From positions 1-20,747 of the IMG/VR virus record IMGVR_UViG_3300031873_000049: a stretch of DNA of 20,747 nucleotides; one strand, given 5' to 3'. Source of the stretch: a virus. The notes beneath the pieces are model-generated. The model was not told the origin of the DNA. It searched no databases and worked only from the letters and a program-made list of their open reading frames with translations. This document shows, one piece after another, positions 10,399 through 20,747 of the stretch. The stretch's first letter is position 1. Each line of letters begins with the position of its first letter. The translations under genes were made by a program, and so were the position numbers.

Positions 10399-11730
10399 AT
10401 GTCAAATTCGATTTCTCGTCGCCTCGGATACGAGGGGGCCTATAACTTCTTCAATAGTTTTATCACCGCTTCGGCGGATGCGATTGTTGGATACGTCATG
10501 CTCGGTCGTAACATTGCTTGGGATGCCAATGATGCTGTGCCAGCGATTTATGATACTGAAAACACTCTATTTAATACCTACAATAATTTTCTTGGTGGCA
10601 AGAAGATCACTGGAAACGATGTACAGCCGGTTATTCCTCGTGTTAATTGGTCTGCCAATATCGTCTGGACAGCATACGATGATGCCAGCAACACATTATT
10701 TTCATCGAGTAATGCCATGTATGCGTATGCTTCCGGTGGCAACGTCTACAAGTGTCTCAATAATGCAAATGGTGCCTATTCTACGATTGAACCAGCGAAC
10801 AACTACACGAGTGCCAACGGATTCACCTCACCTGGTGATGGTTATCTCTGGAAGTATATGTATAAGGTGCCCAGCACCAGCCAATTTCTCACTAACTCGT
10901 GGATGCCAGTCCCCACAACTCAATCCCCAGCGTATTTTGGGTTTGCGAATAATATCATCAAAGGAGCAATATCGCGCCTGGTGTTGACAACTGGTGGAGC
11001 AGGATATTCCAACACGAACACGACCATCGTAATAACGGGATCTGGTAGTTCAGCCAATGCCACTGCAAATGTCAATGCCAACGGAAATGTGATTGCCATT
11101 ACATTGAATAATCGTGGGGTGGATTACCTTAGACAAAATACAAGAGTTAATGTGGTTGGATCTGGGTCCAATGCAGCGATTCGGGTGATACTCTCACCCT
11201 ATGGGGGACATGGATTCAATCCTGCCCGTGAGTTGGGTGCCAATACGATCATGATTGCAGTCAAAGTGGGGGATGTTGATTCCACTGAGGGTGATACCAT
11301 TACCTCCAATAACGACTTCAGACAAGTTGGATTGTTATTGCGCCCGAACAAATATGGCGAGAATAGTGCGGTAACCAGTGCAAATTCGAATGTCGCAGTC
11401 ACGATGGTCACCCAAATTATTCTCACTTCGGGCCCATCATATTTGAAGGATGAACTGGTGTATCAGGGTGTGGCTGTATCCAATTCCACTTTCTCGGCCA
11501 ATGTATCGGATATCTTCACAAACGCGGTTCGAACTACGAATAGACAGGGGACCCCAGTGCCTGGGGCTCTTCTCATCGGACAAACCTCTGGAGTCTCGCG
11601 CACGGTCGTCACCTATACGAACCCAGACCTTGATGAGGAATCTGGTGACCTGGTATATACCGAAAATCGGTCTCCAGTCGTGCGATCAGATGGGCAAGCC
11701 GAGTGGATCAAGATTATAGTTAATTTCTAA
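10399..11730 (+). CDS. 8: Baseplate wedge subunit, gp8-like
   Basis: A 443-aa protein (T4 gp8 is 334 aa), a wedge protein that dimerises on the outer baseplate. Shared landmarks with T4 gp8 as I recall it are: early 'NFFNSF', 'VIPRVNW', 'YKCLNN', 'SPGDGYLWKYMYKVP' (about 144-158; T4 'DGYVWEYLFEIP'), 'NDFRQVGLLLRPN' (about 305-317; T4 'FRQISIITNP') and the C-terminus 'SGDLVYTENRSPVV...IKIIVNF' (T4 'SGEMIYMENRPPII...INILFTF'). The extra length is mainly residues 191-274, two GxGY modules ('LVLTTGGAGYSNTNTTIVIT', 'ITLNNRGVDYLRQNTRVNVV') leading into 'SPYGGHGFNPARELGAN'. The gene has its own late promoter and GGGGA ribosome binding site. Confidence 0.92.
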   Translation: MSNSISRRLGYEGAYNFFNSFITASADAIVGYVMLGRNIAWDANDAVPAIYDTENTLFNTYNNFLGGKKITGNDVQPVIPRVNWSANIVWTAYDDASNTLFSSSNAMYAYASGGNVYKCLNNANGAYSTIEPANNYTSANGFTSPGDGYLWKYMYKVPSTSQFLTNSWMPVPTTQSPAYFGFANNIIKGAISRLVLTTGGAGYSNTNTTIVITGSGSSANATANVNANGNVIAITLNNRGVDYLRQNTRVNVVGSGSNAAIRVILSPYGGHGFNPARELGANTIMIAVKVGDVDSTEGDTITSNNDFRQVGLLLRPNKYGENSAVTSANSNVAVTMVTQIILTSGPSYLKDELVYQGVAVSNSTFSANVSDIFTNAVRTTNRQGTPVPGALLIGQTSGVSRTVVTYTNPDLDEESGDLVYTENRSPVVRSDGQAEWIKIIVNF

Positions 11731-11771: not shown

Positions 11772-14700
11772 ATGCCTATCGATTTGACACAGAACCCATA
11801 TAATGATGATTTTGATCCAAACAAACACTTCCACAAGATCCTTTTCAAGCCCAGCTTTGCGGTTCAGGCCAGAGAACTGACACAATCGCAAACTATCCTC
11901 CAAGATCAAGTTGCCAAATTGGGAAGAAATATATTTCAGAATGGGTCCATTGTTACTGGTGGACAGTCAATGTTGGATGTCACTTCTCCTCAGTATATCT
12001 GCATCGAAGCCACCGAACCATCGGGCGCGGTTGTGGATGTTAATAACTTCATTGGAAAGTTCATTGTCGATACGGAAACAGTTCGTGCTGGTGTTCGCGC
12101 ATATGTTATCGCTGGTGCCGCAGCCACCACAACCTCTCCTACTGTTTTGATCGTTAAGTATACCTCTGGACAACATTTTGCTGCAACATTTACACAGCCC
12201 ATCATCACAGAAGATGCCACCCACAGTGTTGCGATCATTGCCAGTTTGACGAGCCCGATTAATTTTACCGATGTCACCAGCGGATTGAAGTTTGGTGATG
12301 CGTCTATTTCAAGTATTCAAGATGGTGTATTTTTTGTTGATGGGGTATTTGTTCAAGTTGAGGAACAAACCATAATCCTCGATGCGTTTGATAAGACCCC
12401 AACCTATCGTATTGGACTTCAGATAGACGAGACGCTTGTAGATGAAACTCAGGATGCGTCTTTGCTCGATCCTGCACAGGCCTCTACGAACTTTCAGGCA
12501 CCTGGCGCAGATCGTTACCGAGTGGTTCTGACACTCACCAAACGATCACTCACCTCCCAAGATGATACAAAATTTATTGAATTACTACGTGTGGTTGCTG
12601 GCAATCTCACAAAGAAAGTGCAGTATCCAACTTATTCAAATCTTGAAGCGACGATGGCACGTAGAATGGACGATCAATCTGGATCATTCACCGTGCGCCC
12701 ATTCAAGGTCGCATTCGAACCACATGCCACTTTCTCCAATGCGTACAACATCGTGGTTGAAGCTGGTAAGGCTTATGTGCAGGGGCATGAATTTGAAACT
12801 ATCGCTCCAACCTACATCAAGGCCGAACGCGCTCGATCATTAGCCAACGTGTACCGATATGGCACAAATGTAGATTTTCAGAACTGGCTTGAAGTGACGG
12901 ATCTTGTGGGCCCAATTCCTTTTAAGACCTTACAGGCCGGTGTGTTGCATTGTGTCAATACTGCGAGCATCGCGGTGGCCAACGCAGCGGTTGCTGCCAA
13001 CACACTCATGGGTACAATTATTATTCGTGCACTGGATTATCAAGCTGGAGCGAATGCCACTTCAATAAGTACCGCAGTGTGGCGAGCCTACATGTTCAAT
13101 TCAAACGTCGCACAGAGTATTGTAGCCAATTGCGCTCTTGGACTGACCGGCACGGCAAACACCATTTATCTAGCACCAAACTTCTCCTCAGTTGCAAATG
13201 CCTACGTAGGAGTGAAGTTTACTGTCACATCAAATGCGGGTGTTGTGCTCACTGAACACCACACCATTGGCAGCTACGATGGTCCAACTAACAAAGCCAC
13301 TCTTCAAGGAACCGAGACCTTTGCGTTTGGTATTCCTGGTGAGATGACACAATTTAGATTGGATTATGAATTCAAGGATACTAACGCTGTTGTTTATTCT
13401 AATACCTCAGTTAATCAACATGTGTTCTCAACATCCATGGATGTCAATTCAACAAGTCTAGATGATCCACTCGTTGATCGATACCAAGGAGCGTTCCTCA
13501 CTGACAGTGAATTTAACACCGCATTTTTACAATTGCCATATCCAACGGTTGCAGATCAAACAGTCGTGAATGGAATTCCCCTTACCAACAGTCAATATTT
13601 TGGACGCAAAGCCTACACCGGTCAGTCATTCACCCAGAATGTCACTAGCTTTGTCAGTGCTGCGGGAATCACTTCACTCGTCAATGGATCGCCACTCTCT
13701 GGTTCTGATGCGATTGACAACATCCTCGTCGTGATGAGAGACGTAACTGGATCACCCCTCACAAACAATCAGGTCATTAATTTTTCATCTGGTAATCCAG
13801 GTGGCAACACTGTCACGGTCTCTACAGTCAGCAATACTTCTACGTGGGTTATTACAGTGCCTAACACCAACAGTGCCGCAAGTGCCGATGTCTACGTAAA
13901 AGTTGATCTTCCTTACTCTGATAAAATTGGGTCCTTGTTACGTGCGAAGACTGCAAGAAATGCCAACATTGCTGCGGGACTGAATTCTGGTGGTATACAG
14001 ATTCCTGATGCGAATGGATTAGTCCAATGGTATACACAGGGACCAACATTGGGTGCACAGATCACATTCTATGCGAACTCGGCAGCATGGCTCAATCTGA
14101 AAGATCCAACCAAGACTCAATCGATTTTCACTTCAGATGTGGTGAGACTCCGTAGGGTTATTGATGTTGGAAAAAATCTCATCGAGGATGGCAATGTGGC
14201 TATTGCGGCTGACATTACTGCCCGATACTCCCTCGACAGTGGACAGCGTGACAATGCCTATGAACATGGTTCCATACAACTAAAAGCAGGATCAACCGGT
14301 CCACTGGGTAATGTGGTGGTCTATGTTGACTACCTCGCGCATTCTGGATTAGGATATCTCACGGTTGATTCCTATGCGTCTGCAAATATCGCCTATTCAG
14401 ATATTCCCGATTATACTTCTCCCACACTAGGACATGTGTATCCGTTGCGTGACCTGATCGATTTCCGCCCTCGCCGCAATGATGGTGATATCGCTGGCAT
14501 TTATGGCGAGGAACTATTCGGAATTTCTGGGTTGAATTTCCAAACGGATTTCTCCTATTATTTGGCTCGTGTTGATAAGTTGGTCTTAACGAAGGACCGC
14601 GCATTTGAAGTATTGTCTGGTATCTCCTCACTGAATCCATTAACACCAGCCGACAAAGAAAATGCCATGACCCTTTATAGCTTGACACTACCTCCCTATA

Positions 14701-17700
14701 CCGCAGCGTTAAGAGATATTCGTCAACGCTACAATGACAATCGACGCTACACGATGCGTGATATTGGTACGCTCGAAAAGCGTATCACGAATCTTGAATA
14801 CTACACCTCCTTGAACTTACTTGAGCAAGCGGCCAAAAACCAGGAGATCGTGGATGATACTGGATTAAACCGCTTCAAAAATGGTATACTGGTAGACTCA
14901 TTCACGGGTCATAAGATCGGTGATGTGATGAATGGTGATTATCTTTGCGCCATAGACGCACAAAGTCAAGAATTGCGTCCCCCATATCACTTGGAATCTC
15001 TTGCTTTGGGTATCAGTGAAACCAATTCCACAAACTTTTCTCGCACCGGTTCGTTCGTGACGTTGGCATACACGGTGGCAACATTCCTCGATCAACCATA
15101 TGCGTCACAGGCAATTAATGTAAATCCATTTAATACTATTACTTGGATTGGACAACTTAAACTTGATCCTAGTTCAGACGTGTGGGTTGATACCAAACGC
15201 GCTCCTGACCTCCATATTAACATGGAAGGGGATAATGATAATTGGGCAGCACAAGCATCTGTCTTGAATAAGTCCTTGCAGGGTCAGACGATCAATGGAC
15301 AGACTTTTGGTACAGAGTGGAATGCGTGGCAGACCAACTGGACTGGCGTGAGCACGTCTCATAAAGTTGTTTCTCCGACTTACATCGGACACCAATGCCC
15401 ATGCCCAGGACATCGCATTGAAATCTATGCGCCGGTTGTTGATAGACAGACCACCAGTATCACAGAGAAGCAATCTCGCTCAGGTGTACAGACTGCTTAT
15501 GCACCAGAAACAATTCAAACTTCTATTGGGGATAAGGTTATCAACGAGTCAATCATTCCACGTATGCGCTCGCGTGGGGTGTTGTTTGTTGGAAAGATGT
15601 TGGCCCCAAACACCAATCTCTATGCGTTCTTTGATGGTAGTGCAGTCACGAGTTACTGCAACAAACCAAACATTGTCAAGGTCAACTCAACCACAGTGAA
15701 GTATATCGATACCTATCAGCAGGGTGAAACCGTGCGTGTATTTGATCCAGCTAGAGGACAAAACACCGCAACCGGTTTGGTCATTCTCAGCCGCAATGAA
15801 CCGACCTACACAAACGTAAGTATCGTCAATGTGTCTGGTGGTGATGACGCGAATGTGGCGAATTCCTACGTGATGCACAGCACGAATTCAACTTTCTTGA
15901 TCGGTAATTCTTCCGGTGCTAACACCCTCATTTCGGGCTACTACCATAACACAGGATTCGTGACGAATCCTAACGTATCGAGCATCCTATTGTCGCATGA
16001 TATAGCAAATTCCAACGTCGCATTCTCCAACTCATTCATCGTTGGTCAGACGATCCAGTTCACATCCGCGAACGGGCTGGGACAGTCGGCCACCATTACG
16101 TCCTATAACGCCAACACCCGCAATGTGGCATTCAGTCCATCGGTTACAGTGACACCAAATACCCAAACAACCTACTCTATTGGATACTTCAACTCTGATT
16201 ATCGAGGTGAGGTGTGTGGAACATTTATCATTCCATCAACCAGTGATTTGAGCTTCCGAACAGGAGAACGACAATTCACATTGGCCGACACCATTTCTGG
16301 ACAACTTGAACAATCCCAGACAAATGGAGTGGTGAAATATTTTGCTCAGGGTCTCTTACAGACCGTTCAATCCACCATTCTTTCAACTCGACATTTGGCC
16401 GTACAACGAACAGTGGTTAAAGAGGCGCGAGTGGTCACCCACGATACTGTGACCAGTTCGATTATCGGATATAACAATATTGGATACTACGATCCTCTTG
16501 CTGAGACCTTCTTGGTCGATGCTATCCAGCATCCAACCGGTATTATGATTACTGGTGTGAGACTAATGTTCAAGACTAAGGATGACCACATCCCTCTTCA
16601 GGTACAGATTCGTCCAGTCGTGAATGGATTCCCACATTCATCTTCAGTTGTGCCTGGAACCGATACCGTAGTTAATCCAAGTGATATGAATACCGTCTCT
16701 GAGGCTACGCTTGGAGCCAAGTATCTCTCTGGTGGTAATCCTTTCGATGACGCGACGATGTACACACAAATCAACTTCGAAGGACCTGTGTATTTGCAAC
16801 AGGGAGCGGAGTATGCCATTGTCTTGATTGCAAATTCAATAAAATACCAAGTGTACATTTCTGAAATGGGCAACAAAATCGTTGGCACGGATCGTATTAT
16901 ATCGGAGCAACCATACTTGGGCACCTTGTTCAAGTCGCAGAACTCGACTACGTGGACTCCAGTGCAGGAACAAGACTTGGCATTCAGACTTTTGTATGCT
17001 CAGTTTGACATCACTAATCAGGCGAATGTGGAATTTCAATTATCTCCATCGGATAATATCACATCTAATATTCCGATAGATGCACTTTATGTGACCTCAG
17101 GTAACTTGTTACTTCCAAATACGTCTATTGGTGCAATGTTCGCCACAACCACCGCAACGGGTGTCAAAGAACCATTGACTGCATTCCAATTAGATGAAAA
17201 TCTATTTTTTGATGACACCTTGGGTCGTCGTGTAGCCAGCAGCGATACCAGTTCATTCAAGGTGCGTGTGTTGCTCAACTCCTTGAGTGCAGATGTGTCT
17301 CCAGTGGTTGATATGGATCGTTTGTCGTTGTATGCTATTGAAAATTTGGTCAACAATCTTGAATTGAGTGGTAGTTTGGCAGCAGTGGTCGCATCGACCA
17401 ATAATTGGGTTACCACCGCAAACGTGTCGGTGAGGATCAGTGGGGGTGGGGGATCTGGCGCGAACGCACTTATCACTACCGCGAACAACATTGATACTAT
17501 CTTCGGTGTTCTAGCTAACGTAACAGTGGATGTCATTGGTAGTGGGTATACCACGGCTCCAACTGTCACGCTTTCTGGTAATACCTTGGTGGGGGCTGCG
17601 GTCAGTATCGCAGGAGAAGATCAGCCATTCGGCGGACCTGCCATTGCTCGATACATTACACGTAAAGTGACGTTGGATGAAAGTATGGATGCTGGGGACT

Positions 17701-18035
17701 TCCGAGTATTCTTTGATGCCTATTATCCATTGACTGCGGAAATCAATGTCTATTATAAGATCTTGTCCGCCGATGACCCAGAGCCATTCGACAACAAAGG
17801 CTACCAACTCATGACCATTATTGGAGGAGCCAACAGCGTCTCTAAGAACCAATTGGATCTCAAGAGTTTCGTGTATGCGCCTGGAGTCAATGGTATTGCT
17901 GCGGATCGTGTGCAATATGGCACCTTCACCAGTTTTAAGTATTTTGCTATTAAAATAGTGATGTCAGCCACCGATACTACTAAGGCACCAAGAATCAGGG
18001 ATCTGAGAGTCGTCGCACTTCCATCATTATCATAA
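11772..18035 (+). CDS. Giant DUF4815-type baseplate/tail structural protein
   Basis: A 2087-aa virion protein of the type that follows gp8 in marine T4-like phages. Its exact place in the baseplate is not established by sequence. The N-terminus 'NPYNDDFDPNKHFHKILFKPSFAVQARELTQSQTILQDQVAKLG' is the DUF4815 opening. Further family marks are 'YPLRDLIDFRPRRND' (about residue 890), 'MRDIGTLEKRITNLEYYTSL' (about 994-1013), 'RFKNGILVDSFTGH' (about 1035-1048), 'DYRGEVCGTFIIPS' (about 1476-1490) and 'HPTGIMITGVRLMFKTKDDHIPLQVQIRPVVNGFP' (about 1587-1620). Two sequence-switch modules of the 'tvYLapNFSS...Y' kind lie near 456-515 and 1405-1470. A GxGY module lies at about 1880-1945 ('VDVIGSGYTTAPTVTLSG'). 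An H1207-x-C1209-x-C1211-x-x-H1214 cluster may bind metal. The gene has its own promoter and ribosome binding site. Confidence 0.9.
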   Translation: MPIDLTQNPYNDDFDPNKHFHKILFKPSFAVQARELTQSQTILQDQVAKLGRNIFQNGSIVTGGQSMLDVTSPQYICIEATEPSGAVVDVNNFIGKFIVDTETVRAGVRAYVIAGAAATTTSPTVLIVKYTSGQHFAATFTQPIITEDATHSVAIIASLTSPINFTDVTSGLKFGDASISSIQDGVFFVDGVFVQVEEQTIILDAFDKTPTYRIGLQIDETLVDETQDASLLDPAQASTNFQAPGADRYRVVLTLTKRSLTSQDDTKFIELLRVVAGNLTKKVQYPTYSNLEATMARRMDDQSGSFTVRPFKVAFEPHATFSNAYNIVVEAGKAYVQGHEFETIAPTYIKAERARSLANVYRYGTNVDFQNWLEVTDLVGPIPFKTLQAGVLHCVNTASIAVANAAVAANTLMGTIIIRALDYQAGANATSISTAVWRAYMFNSNVAQSIVANCALGLTGTANTIYLAPNFSSVANAYVGVKFTVTSNAGVVLTEHHTIGSYDGPTNKATLQGTETFAFGIPGEMTQFRLDYEFKDTNAVVYSNTSVNQHVFSTSMDVNSTSLDDPLVDRYQGAFLTDSEFNTAFLQLPYPTVADQTVVNGIPLTNSQYFGRKAYTGQSFTQNVTSFVSAAGITSLVNGSPLSGSDAIDNILVVMRDVTGSPLTNNQVINFSSGNPGGNTVTVSTVSNTSTWVITVPNTNSAASADVYVKVDLPYSDKIGSLLRAKTARNANIAAGLNSGGIQIPDANGLVQWYTQGPTLGAQITFYANSAAWLNLKDPTKTQSIFTSDVVRLRRVIDVGKNLIEDGNVAIAADITARYSLDSGQRDNAYEHGSIQLKAGSTGPLGNVVVYVDYLAHSGLGYLTVDSYASANIAYSDIPDYTSPTLGHVYPLRDLIDFRPRRNDGDIAGIYGEELFGISGLNFQTDFSYYLARVDKLVLTKDRAFEVLSGISSLNPLTPADKENAMTLYSLTLPPYTAALRDIRQRYNDNRRYTMRDIGTLEKRITNLEYYTSLNLLEQAAKNQEIVDDTGLNRFKNGILVDSFTGHKIGDVMNGDYLCAIDAQSQELRPPYHLESLALGISETNSTNFSRTGSFVTLAYTVATFLDQPYASQAINVNPFNTITWIGQLKLDPSSDVWVDTKRAPDLHINMEGDNDNWAAQASVLNKSLQGQTINGQTFGTEWNAWQTNWTGVSTSHKVVSPTYIGHQCPCPGHRIEIYAPVVDRQTTSITEKQSRSGVQTAYAPETIQTSIGDKVINESIIPRMRSRGVLFVGKMLAPNTNLYAFFDGSAVTSYCNKPNIVKVNSTTVKYIDTYQQGETVRVFDPARGQNTATGLVILSRNEPTYTNVSIVNVSGGDDANVANSYVMHSTNSTFLIGNSSGANTLISGYYHNTGFVTNPNVSSILLSHDIANSNVAFSNSFIVGQTIQFTSANGLGQSATITSYNANTRNVAFSPSVTVTPNTQTTYSIGYFNSDYRGEVCGTFIIPSTSDLSFRTGERQFTLADTISGQLEQSQTNGVVKYFAQGLLQTVQSTILSTRHLAVQRTVVKEARVVTHDTVTSSIIGYNNIGYYDPLAETFLVDAIQHPTGIMITGVRLMFKTKDDHIPLQVQIRPVVNGFPHSSSVVPGTDTVVNPSDMNTVSEATLGAKYLSGGNPFDDATMYTQINFEGPVYLQQGAEYAIVLIANSIKYQVYISEMGNKIVGTDRIISEQPYLGTLFKSQNSTTWTPVQEQDLAFRLLYAQFDITNQANVEFQLSPSDNITSNIPIDALYVTSGNLLLPNTSIGAMFATTTATGVKEPLTAFQLDENLFFDDTLGRRVASSDTSSFKVRVLLNSLSADVSPVVDMDRLSLYAIENLVNNLELSGSLAAVVASTNNWVTTANVSVRISGGGGSGANALITTANNIDTIFGVLANVTVDVIGSGYTTAPTVTLSGNTLVGAAVSIAGEDQPFGGPAIARYITRKVTLDESMDAGDFRVFFDAYYPLTAEINVYYKILSADDPEPFDNKGYQLMTIIGGANSVSKNQLDLKSFVYAPGVNGIAADRVQYGTFTSFKYFAIKIVMSATDTTKAPRIRDLRVVALPSLS

Positions 18036-18044
18036 AGGATTATT

Positions 18045-18284
18045 ATGTCGGCCATAAATACCCTCAAGATTGAGAACACTGAATTTGTCAGAGATATGTC
18101 TTCGCAGGCGGTTGTAAGTACCGATATTGCTGGGCTTGGTCGATATAAAGAGGCAAGACGAAAATCTTTGGTGCAGAAACAAGAATTTCAGGAAACAAAG
18201 AAACGACTGGAAACAATAGAAGGTGAGATGCTCACGTTGAAACGCATTGTGAGTGAACTTTCTGTCTTACGAAGCCGAGGATAA
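18045..18284 (+). CDS. Small coiled-coil protein, probably virion-associated
   Basis: A 79-aa protein with a good ribosome binding site (AAGGA, 18035-18039, overlapping the previous stop). Residues 1-35 contain 'ENTEFVRDMSSQAVVSTDIAGLGRYKEAR', a pattern I associate with small proteins between the DUF4815-type gene and the fibre genes of cyanophages. Residues about 42-76 are charged with regular hydrophobic spacing ('EFQETKKRLETIEGEMLTLKRIVSEL'), which is likely a coiled coil. It may be a connector or trimerisation factor for the adjacent fibre, or a minor structural protein. No experimental function is known to me. The next gene starts 15 nt after its stop, behind a TAAGG site. Confidence 0.8.
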   Translation: MSAINTLKIENTEFVRDMSSQAVVSTDIAGLGRYKEARRKSLVQKQEFQETKKRLETIEGEMLTLKRIVSELSVLRSRG

Positions 18285-18299
18285 TTGTAAGGTACAAAC

Positions 18300-19568
18300 A
18301 TGTCTATCAACCAGATAAATGTAAGTAATACTTTTGGCCAGTTGATTACTGCCGTTGCCGCGATGATTGCGGTCGCCAACAACTTGACCGATGGACCACA
18401 GGTTTCGACTAATGCTGCGTGGTCCTTCATCAATCAGGATGTTGGGGTCAATGTCGGAAATACCGCTCTCATTAAAACCGCCAATGTCCAATTTCTGAAT
18501 GCAGGATTTGCAAACATCGTATCAATGAACATAGCAAGTATCAACACATCCTTCGCCAACATCAGCACGGCAAGCATAATCACGCTGAATGCTTCAACGG
18601 CAAATATTTCCAATGCCACCCTTGCAACGATGAATACCTCTTATGCCAACATCACATCTGGTATTGCCAATTTTACAAATTTGAGTGCTACGGTAGCGAA
18701 TGTGAATAGTGGAACTTTTGGTGTTCTGAATGCTTCCTATGCAAATCTTGTATCTGGGATAGCAGTATTATCTACATTGAGTGTATCATTTGCTAATCTC
18801 ACTGTAGCGAACGTGAATAGCGGAACTTTCGGCGTCTTAAATGCTTCGGTTGCTAATGCGACAGTAGCCAATGTTGTTAGCATCACCGTTTCTTCTCAAT
18901 TAAACGCTGAACGTGCTAATGCGACAGTAGCCAATGTGAATAGTGGAACTTTTGATGTTCTCAATGCTTCGGTTGCTAATGCGACTGTAGCCAATGTGAA
19001 TAGTGGAACTTTTGATGTTCTCAATGCTTCGGTTGCTAATGCGACTGTAGCCAATGTGAATAGTGGAACTTTTGATGTTCTCAATGCTTCGGTTGCTAAT
19101 GCGACTGTAGCGAACTTAGTGAGTGCCACCATCCCAACTTTGAATTCTTCTAGTGCAAATTTAACATTGGCGATCATTACAACTGGTAATACCGTCACCA
19201 TAAATTCTAATTCGGCAAATCTCGTAAACTTGCGTGTCGTATCCCTCATCACCGTGGGCACCACATTCACCAGTGAAGCCAACACGGGTGATGTTATCCT
19301 AGTCCAGGGAAGTGGACTGCGTAGCGTCAATGTTGCTGGTACAGGATTTATCACACTCATTCGATCTCAAACAGGTTCCGATATTGTGTGGTTATCTCCA
19401 GAAGGAAGAGACATCCGTTGGGGAGCCAACCTAATAGCTCTCGGTGGTGGTGCAACGCCAACATTTGGAACTATCGGGGGTGTGGGACCGGCTGCGGCTG
19501 CTCAGGATACATGGATGCGAGTCCTTGATGCAAATGGCACGGCATTCTGGGTTCCTGCTTGGAAATAA
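18300..19568 (+). CDS. Repeat-rich tail fibre protein
   Basis: A 422-aa fibre. The N-terminus 'INQINVSNTFGQLITAVAAMIAVANNLTDGP' matches the attachment-type opening of T4-like cyanophage fibres (IN-x-NVSNTF-x-x-W/L). Residues about 60-310 are low-complexity beta repeats built from 'NxSxAN' units. Within them 'TVANVNSGTF' occurs at residues 131, 168, 209, 229 and 249, with diverged copies at 188 and 269. The last three full copies are 20 residues apart and nearly identical in DNA. The C-terminus ends with 'IVWLSPEGRDIRWGANLIAL', then 'TIGGVGPAAAAQDTWMRVLD' and 'GTAFWVPAWK', a short closing domain seen at the end of many phage fibres. It probably forms a trimeric shaft. The ribosome binding site is TAAGG (18288-18292). 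Confidence 0.87.
   Translation: MSINQINVSNTFGQLITAVAAMIAVANNLTDGPQVSTNAAWSFINQDVGVNVGNTALIKTANVQFLNAGFANIVSMNIASINTSFANISTASIITLNASTANISNATLATMNTSYANITSGIANFTNLSATVANVNSGTFGVLNASYANLVSGIAVLSTLSVSFANLTVANVNSGTFGVLNASVANATVANVVSITVSSQLNAERANATVANVNSGTFDVLNASVANATVANVNSGTFDVLNASVANATVANVNSGTFDVLNASVANATVANLVSATIPTLNSSSANLTLAIITTGNTVTINSNSANLVNLRVVSLITVGTTFTSEANTGDVILVQGSGLRSVNVAGTGFITLIRSQTGSDIVWLSPEGRDIRWGANLIALGGGATPTFGTIGGVGPAAAAQDTWMRVLDANGTAFWVPAWK
18690..19160 (+). repeat. Degenerate 60-bp repeat array in the fibre gene
   Basis: Copies of a unit encoding 'TVANVNSGTF(G/D)VLNAS' begin at 18690, 18801, 18924, 18984 and 19044. Weaker copies begin at 18861 and 19104. The outer copies are diverged and the inner ones nearly identical, which is consistent with recent expansion from an older array. 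Confidence 0.85.
18927..19111 (+). repeat. Perfect 60-bp tandem repeat
   Basis: Every base from 18927 to 19051 equals the base 60 positions downstream, giving 185 bp of exact period-60 sequence (just over three units). The left edge is a single A/T difference at 18926 versus 18986. The right edge is at 19112 (g against c). It is in frame, 20 residues per unit. Confidence 0.95.
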
Positions 19569-19590: not shown

Positions 19591-20747
19591 ATGCCATTTA
19601 TATGGAACAGTAATCCAAACCCCCCAACACGAGAACTTCCCCAACCCGTGCCGCCTGGAGAGGTAACATACCTCGTTGATGTCGTAGCGAATACCGTTAA
19701 TGCGGGGGGCTCACTTTTATACAATACCGCCAATACATCTTACGATGTTGTCTACGCACTTCCTTCATTAAATGTTGGGAACCTCACAGTCACGCACAGT
19801 GCTAATATCAATGGCGCTTCCACTATTACTATCCTAAACGCACACCCCATACTTTTTACTAATGGAATTATATCTCATGCTAATTCTGGTGTTGTAGCAT
19901 CGGGATATGGGGGAGCCAGCGTCATTCCGGTCCTCGTCATCGATACTACTGGACACATTACATCAGTCACGAATACCGCTATTATCTTATCAGGTGAGGC
20001 TCTTGCCTCCAACGGCGATGGTACCCTCCTCATTGGTAATTCTGCCACTGGTCATTTCAATGTAAACCCCCTCACACCAGGAACAGGAATTTTGGTCAAC
20101 AATGACAGGGGGTCGATCACACTTGTTGCCACTGGCGATCCTATCCTTTCGGGGCATCGCTATGGAAATGCCTGGGTTTCAAGAAGGGTCCTGAATAGTC
20201 CTTCCGAGGTTCAGTACGATTATCAGGATGCTGCTTGGAATGGCTCTATTCATGTGCTAGTTCCTATTAATATCCATGCCAACGTAAATAAAGTTTCAAC
20301 CAGCCCCGATGGTATTTCTTGGAGTACACACACCGTCCCTGATGGGGAATGGCTTATTGTCGATTCGAATCCTAGTTACTTTGTCTGCATGGGTGTACAT
20401 GGTGGTGGTGTGAAAGTCATGACCAGTCCCGATGGATTTAACTGGACTCGCCACGAAGGTCTTCTTCCGTCAATCGATATCGGCGCACTTGGTGCTGCAT
20501 CGCATCAAATGACTTGGAATGGTAGCGTCTTTGCTGTGATACCGAAAGGCACACCCTTCCCAGCATTGTTTAGTGCTGATGGTATCACTTGGACAGCCAC
20601 ACCCTTCCCCTCTCATCCAATCAATCAGGGAATAACAGCAGGAGGCGGTCTTTTTGTTGCAGTCGGCTACAACACATCAATAAGTACCAGTTCTAATGGT
20701 AACAATTGGGTCAGTAGATCATCTAGCTCAAATGACGCGACTCATGT
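19591..20747 (+). CDS. Tail fibre / receptor-binding protein with Asp-box-like repeats (3' end outside window)
   Basis: The frame is open from the ATG at 19591 to the window edge (385 codons), with AGAGGA (19581-19586) as ribosome binding site. The N-terminus is Pro-rich ('NPNPPTRELPQPVPPGEV'). Residues 101-130 read 'GYGGASVIPVLVIDTTGHITSVTNTAI', a motif common in phage fibres ('xxVPxlxvDxxGrIt'). From about 205 on there are repeats of the bacterial beta-propeller / Asp-box type: 'SPDGISW' at 238-244, 'SPDGFNW' at 279-285, 'SADGITW' at 328-334 and 'SSNGNNW' at 367-373. These are separated by 41, 49 and 39 residues. Strands such as 'WNGSIHVLV', 'WNGSVFAVI' and 'GGGLFVAVG' lie between them. This suggests a propeller head that would bind a host surface sugar or protein. 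Enzymatic activity is not indicated. Confidence 0.85.
   Translation, partial: MPFIWNSNPNPPTRELPQPVPPGEVTYLVDVVANTVNAGGSLLYNTANTSYDVVYALPSLNVGNLTVTHSANINGASTITILNAHPILFTNGIISHANSGVVASGYGGASVIPVLVIDTTGHITSVTNTAIILSGEALASNGDGTLLIGNSATGHFNVNPLTPGTGILVNNDRGSITLVATGDPILSGHRYGNAWVSRRVLNSPSEVQYDYQDAAWNGSIHVLVPINIHANVNKVSTSPDGISWSTHTVPDGEWLIVDSNPSYFVCMGVHGGGVKVMTSPDGFNWTRHEGLLPSIDIGALGAASHQMTWNGSVFAVIPKGTPFPALFSADGITWTATPFPSHPINQGITAGGGLFVAVGYNTSISTSSNGNNWVSRSSSSNDATH

Follow-up and report, generated by a model that had tools for sequence, protein, structure and literature searches.

In-frame gain and loss of 60-bp units as the probable source of length differences in the shaft of a tail-fibre-like protein from T4-like phages

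While phage EfV12-phi1 coevolved with its host, its tail-fibre gene acquired in-frame tandem duplications that varied in copy number (PMC6365445). In the gp37 adhesin of T4, duplications of a small domain were reported to expand the host range, as Tetart et al. 1996 are cited in PMC6365445 and PMC6957217. Tandem repeats of BACON domains in crAssphage are reported to have been studied as sites of rapid evolution (PMC6949934). The locus presented here carries a 60-bp repeat in frame with its gene. It is quite probable that the gene product is a tail-fibre-like, baseplate-associated protein of a T4-like phage, that the locus codes for its repetitive shaft, and that the length of this shaft evolves stepwise between lineages through in-frame gain and loss of units.

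The fibre-like gene and its family

The window (the whole stretch of DNA analysed) is a viral contig 20,747 bp long with a T4-like baseplate operon coding for tube cap, wedge, hub, PAAR, and more wedge proteins. The nearest isolate relatives of its gp6-like wedge protein are Pelagibacter, Methylophilales, and Synechococcus phages, with 32-39% identity. The genes around the array and the parts of the fibre-like protein are as follows:

11772-18035, + strand: DUF4815 protein of 2087 aa, upstream of the fibre-like gene (PF16075, phrog_358)
18045-18284, + strand: 79-aa gene, according to synteny a constant neighbour of the fibre-like gene (PHROG 473, virion structural protein)
18300-19568, + strand: fibre-like gene with the array, 422 aa (ORF; syntenic family)
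18300-18515 (aa 1-72), + strand: conserved N-terminal part, in alignment the shared anchor of the family
18441-19274 (aa 48-325), + strand: shaft of five-residue modules (autocorrelation at multiples of 5; pentapeptide-repeat profile match)
19275-19565, + strand: C-terminal part, shared with L004/L024 only; L015/L025 and L014 have other C-termini
19591-20745, + strand: downstream fibre-like gene, truncated by the contig end (weak match to phrog_31660, tail fiber protein)

The gene order around the fibre-like gene, in or adjoining the baseplate operon, is identical in the window and in a syntenic family that was built by using the whole protein, its N-terminus, and the upstream gene as queries against viral contigs. 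Counted as distinct at 95% identity, the complete genes of this family number 29; they code for 118-780 aa and are located after the DUF4815-type and ~79-aa genes. The fibre-like protein is composed of a conserved N-terminus, a repetitive shaft, and a variable C-terminus, and judging from its position and conservation the N-terminal part probably attaches to the baseplate. A Pfam search of the 422-aa protein gave no match, and a PHROGs search gave no named family and only a weak match, to one whose function is unknown; as no named tail-fibre family was matched, the protein is called fibre-like here. When the full protein was compared to isolate phages in tblastn, there were just weak, partial matches to three Acinetobacter phages (29-33% identity), and none when the N-terminus was used. 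No relative was found in bacterial and archaeal genomes.

The full copy of the downstream fibre-like gene in L013 (6246-9725, 1159 aa) has a stronger match to the PHROG 31660 tail fiber protein. This gene contains many SPDGITWT-like repeats and its product is perhaps a beta-propeller.

The 60-bp array and its copy number

The 185 bp with exact 60-bp periodicity that a preliminary description had reported were confirmed at positions 18927-19111 (3.08 copies, + strand, with a 125-bp self-match at lag 60). Tandem Repeats Finder placed the repeat at 18914-19111, with a period of 60, 3.3 copies, and 99% match. The older, diverged array of the same unit, described there at 18690-19160, agrees with units spanning 18687-19160, which are listed here:

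18687-18746 (aa 130-149), + strand: diverged, older 60-bp unit
18798-18857 (aa 167-186), + strand: diverged, older 60-bp unit
18858-18920 (aa 187-207), + strand: variant 63-bp unit with QLNAER, which in L024 sits after the D unit
18921-18980, + strand: recent unit 1, one base off at 18926
18981-19040, + strand: recent unit 2
19041-19100, + strand: recent unit 3, exactly as unit 2
19101-19160 (aa 268-287), + strand: diverged unit ending the array

The D-type unit, ATVANVNSGTFDVLNASVAN, is encoded in codon frame by each of the three recent units. These are 0-1 base apart, as unit 1 deviates from units 2 and 3 at a single base, while the two older VNSGTF units of the window have 9-15 differences per 60 bases, the distance to the recent units being 9-13 bases. 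According to codon usage, the odds of 41 identical codons at lag 60 in the same protein are about 1e-21. In 2000 recodings of the same protein, the longest run at lag 60 was 29 vs 125 observed, and 500 base shuffles gave runs of 8 at most. Chance, codon bias, and shared protein sequence were ruled out by the recoding and shuffle tests as the cause of the periodicity. The similarity of the units is beyond codon constraint, and the reading that a 20-residue unit has recently expanded in frame within a shaft-like region was upheld.

The preliminary description had named an assembly artefact as a possible refutation. With such an artefact, the true copy number would be higher or lower; the exact 185-bp repeat does exceed typical short reads, and as four copies would not be resolvable at k=127, which is the value assumed for the assembler, a larger true number might be collapsed. 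However, no 126-mer occurs twice in the window, whose longest repeated word is 125 bases, so three copies are resolved at k=127, and four are not. In addition, L003, a contig of a different record that belongs to a near-identical virus, is distinguished from the window by 14 SNPs over ~6.8 kb and by a 587-bp insert, and carries the same array of three copies with zero SNPs; it is the sole near-identical relative to do so. A one-off assembly error is thus unlikely, and the three copies are probably real and older than the split of the window and L003. Both the k-mer uniqueness and the second distinct contig ruled out an artefact as the main explanation, and the probability left to it is very low indeed. 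Short-read assemblies with k-mers of 127 or less resolve at most three such units and may thus overlook longer alleles.

The upstream 4.3 kb contain 11 SNPs that separate the window from L003, and 10 of them are clustered at 17396-17633, which suggests a small recombination tract. No second array of similar scale was found elsewhere in the window, where the sole other Tandem Repeats Finder match is at 11055-11098. This is an 18-bp repeat of 2.4 copies within the gp8-like baseplate gene, and it looks ordinary. An ORF on the reverse strand at 18896-19360, overlapping the array, was interpreted as a shadow of the repeat.

Unit number and shaft replacement among relatives

Four members of the family have the VNSGTF-type shaft, with five units in the window, six in L024 (the same contig as L004), three in L015, and two in L025. 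The unit count across related phages, proposed as a check in the preliminary description, is hence not constant. Two pairs of proteins with both ends in common are exactly 20 residues apart (422 vs 442 aa and 345 vs 365 aa). L024 carries separate recent duplications of 90 bp and 60 bp, and L064 has a recent duplication of 84 bp, with a unit of 28 aa that is not a multiple of five. In the window the QLNAER unit precedes the recent units, whereas in L024 it follows the D unit. Differing unit counts, 20-residue steps, separate duplications, and changed order all point to in-frame gain, loss, and rearrangement of units in several lineages, on the species scale. The contigs of L016, L018, and L019 stop within the shaft gene, L018 and L019 at the same base, and no exact repeat was found at these three contig ends.

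Gene conversion could also have homogenised the units with no change in their number and no recent expansion. Units are often more alike within than across genomes, and their order differs between the window and L004, as might be expected from this process, but the unit number varies among the four relatives and the proteins with both ends in common differ by exactly one 20-residue step. Because the unit number differs, gene conversion alone was judged very unlikely.

For gain and loss of units, the preferred reading, neighbouring units would be added or removed by replication slippage or unequal recombination, and these two are indistinguishable from the present sequences. Such changes would be tolerated because the units are whole numbers of five-residue shaft modules, by which both the frame and the shaft pattern would be preserved and the changes would survive. 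The outcome would be a slow, stepwise evolution of shaft length between lineages. No sign of a dedicated switch was seen at the locus.

A larger kind of change was found in L014. Its identity to the window is 98.6% over 7.8 kb upstream and 94% over the following 238 bp into the fibre gene. Beyond about residue 72 the similarity stops, and L014 encodes a protein of 759 aa with a different shaft and tip. L015 and L025 have a third kind of C-terminus. To judge from these sequences, replacement of shaft and tip alters the fibre gene far more than unit number does, and any effect of unit number on host range is probably small beside it. The earlier proposal, that copy number would set fibre length or reach and could serve host recognition, is thus supported in part, by the whole-unit differences in length between related viruses; the main variation is the replacement of shaft and tip.

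The comparison of relatives also bears on copy number as an active mechanism of length variation, in which frequent change of units within a population tunes reach or host range. Unit number does differ among relatives, recent duplications are present in more than one lineage, and the tandem duplications that EfV12-phi1 carries in a tail-fibre gene arose in coevolution (PMC6365445). On the other hand, the sole near-identical relative with the array matches the window in copy number and has no SNP there, and L014 replaces shaft and tip as a whole. An active mechanism is therefore considered unlikely, and slow stepwise change between lineages is preferred.

In L015 (8914-10629) and L025 (8834-10546), two extra genes of ~275 and ~292 aa separate the fibre gene from the fibre-like gene that follows, alongside the third C-terminus. 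At three loci a free-standing GIY-YIG endonuclease gene stands immediately before the fibre gene; two of the three were scanned with Pfam, and the third reads the same. A fourth locus has a GIY-YIG-looking ORF without a Pfam match. These genes and the ORF are located at 4350-4973 in L003/L013, 7786-8409 in L014, 7778-8398 in L021, and 7788-8507 in L022. The insertion point is near position 18283 of the window, which itself has no endonuclease. The window and L013 have the fibre in common and not the endonuclease, while L013 and L014 have the endonuclease in common and not the fibre.

Shaft structure and comparison with known systems

Five-residue periodicity was detected in all 12 of 12 shafts, and was as strong in none of 300 shuffles. 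The best repeat length of most shafts is 15 or 5 residues, not 20. When a profile of 15 shafts was compared to solved structures, it matched 4yfo (E 8e-14) and 2j8k (E 8e-7), which we take to be pentapeptide-repeat proteins, and one weaker match carries the pentapeptide-repeat name itself. The shaft of the window, shuffled or reversed as a control, gave no match to those structures. Pentapeptide models of Pfam never reached the cut-off, with best E values of 0.0096 and 0.014 in 2-3 of the 15 members. AlphaFold2 models of the shafts are all-beta and of modest confidence; Foldseek and VIA-align matched them to solved structures of a general beta-solenoid kind and to no confident fold, and the pentapeptide-repeat fold, a right-handed quadrilateral beta-helix, was absent among the matches listed, an absence that does not count against such a fold. 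A search of a viral structure library yielded a small number of weak matches, to uncharacterised phage proteins. In view of the missed Pfam cut-off, the periods of 15 or 5 residues, and no confident fold, the shaft would be better said to work like a pentapeptide solenoid than to be one.

One turn of a beta-solenoid adds ~0.5 nm. If one 20-residue unit were one such turn, it would add about that length, which is a small step in reach. A more specific model takes the shaft for a pentapeptide-type solenoid with the 60-bp unit as one turn, unit number being a built-in ruler that sets the distance of the tip in steps of one turn with its face kept, and populations holding several lengths; this model is doubtful.

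A search of the literature on phage fibre minisatellites and pentapeptide fibres gave no direct precedent for this type of unit. The shafts resemble the pentapeptide-repeat proteins 4yfo and 2j8k in five-residue periodicity and profile similarity, but differ from them in that no Pfam pentapeptide model reaches its cut-off and the best repeat length of most of these shafts is 15 residues. Like the crAssphage BACON repeats (PMC6949934), the units are repeats within a phage protein; BACON repeats are whole carbohydrate-binding domains, whereas the units here are 20 residues of a shaft. In T4 gp37, as in the present case, the duplication affected a limited portion of a T4-type fibre protein, but in the cited accounts this was a small adhesin domain with an expanded host range, and the present unit belongs to the shaft. 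A tandem in-frame duplication within a phage tail-fibre gene is also the case in EfV12-phi1 (PMC6365445), where the unit is 1.8 kb and varies within populations; here it is 60 bp, and variation is known between relatives.

At a single locus, two modes of fibre evolution can be separated, one proceeding by small steps in unit number and the other by exchange of shaft and tip as a whole. The recent, independent in-frame duplications of units are readable across uncultured T4-like phages with a common gene order. Evolution of fibre length by in-frame duplication is already known in phages, and the present locus is a natural example of it with a much smaller unit.
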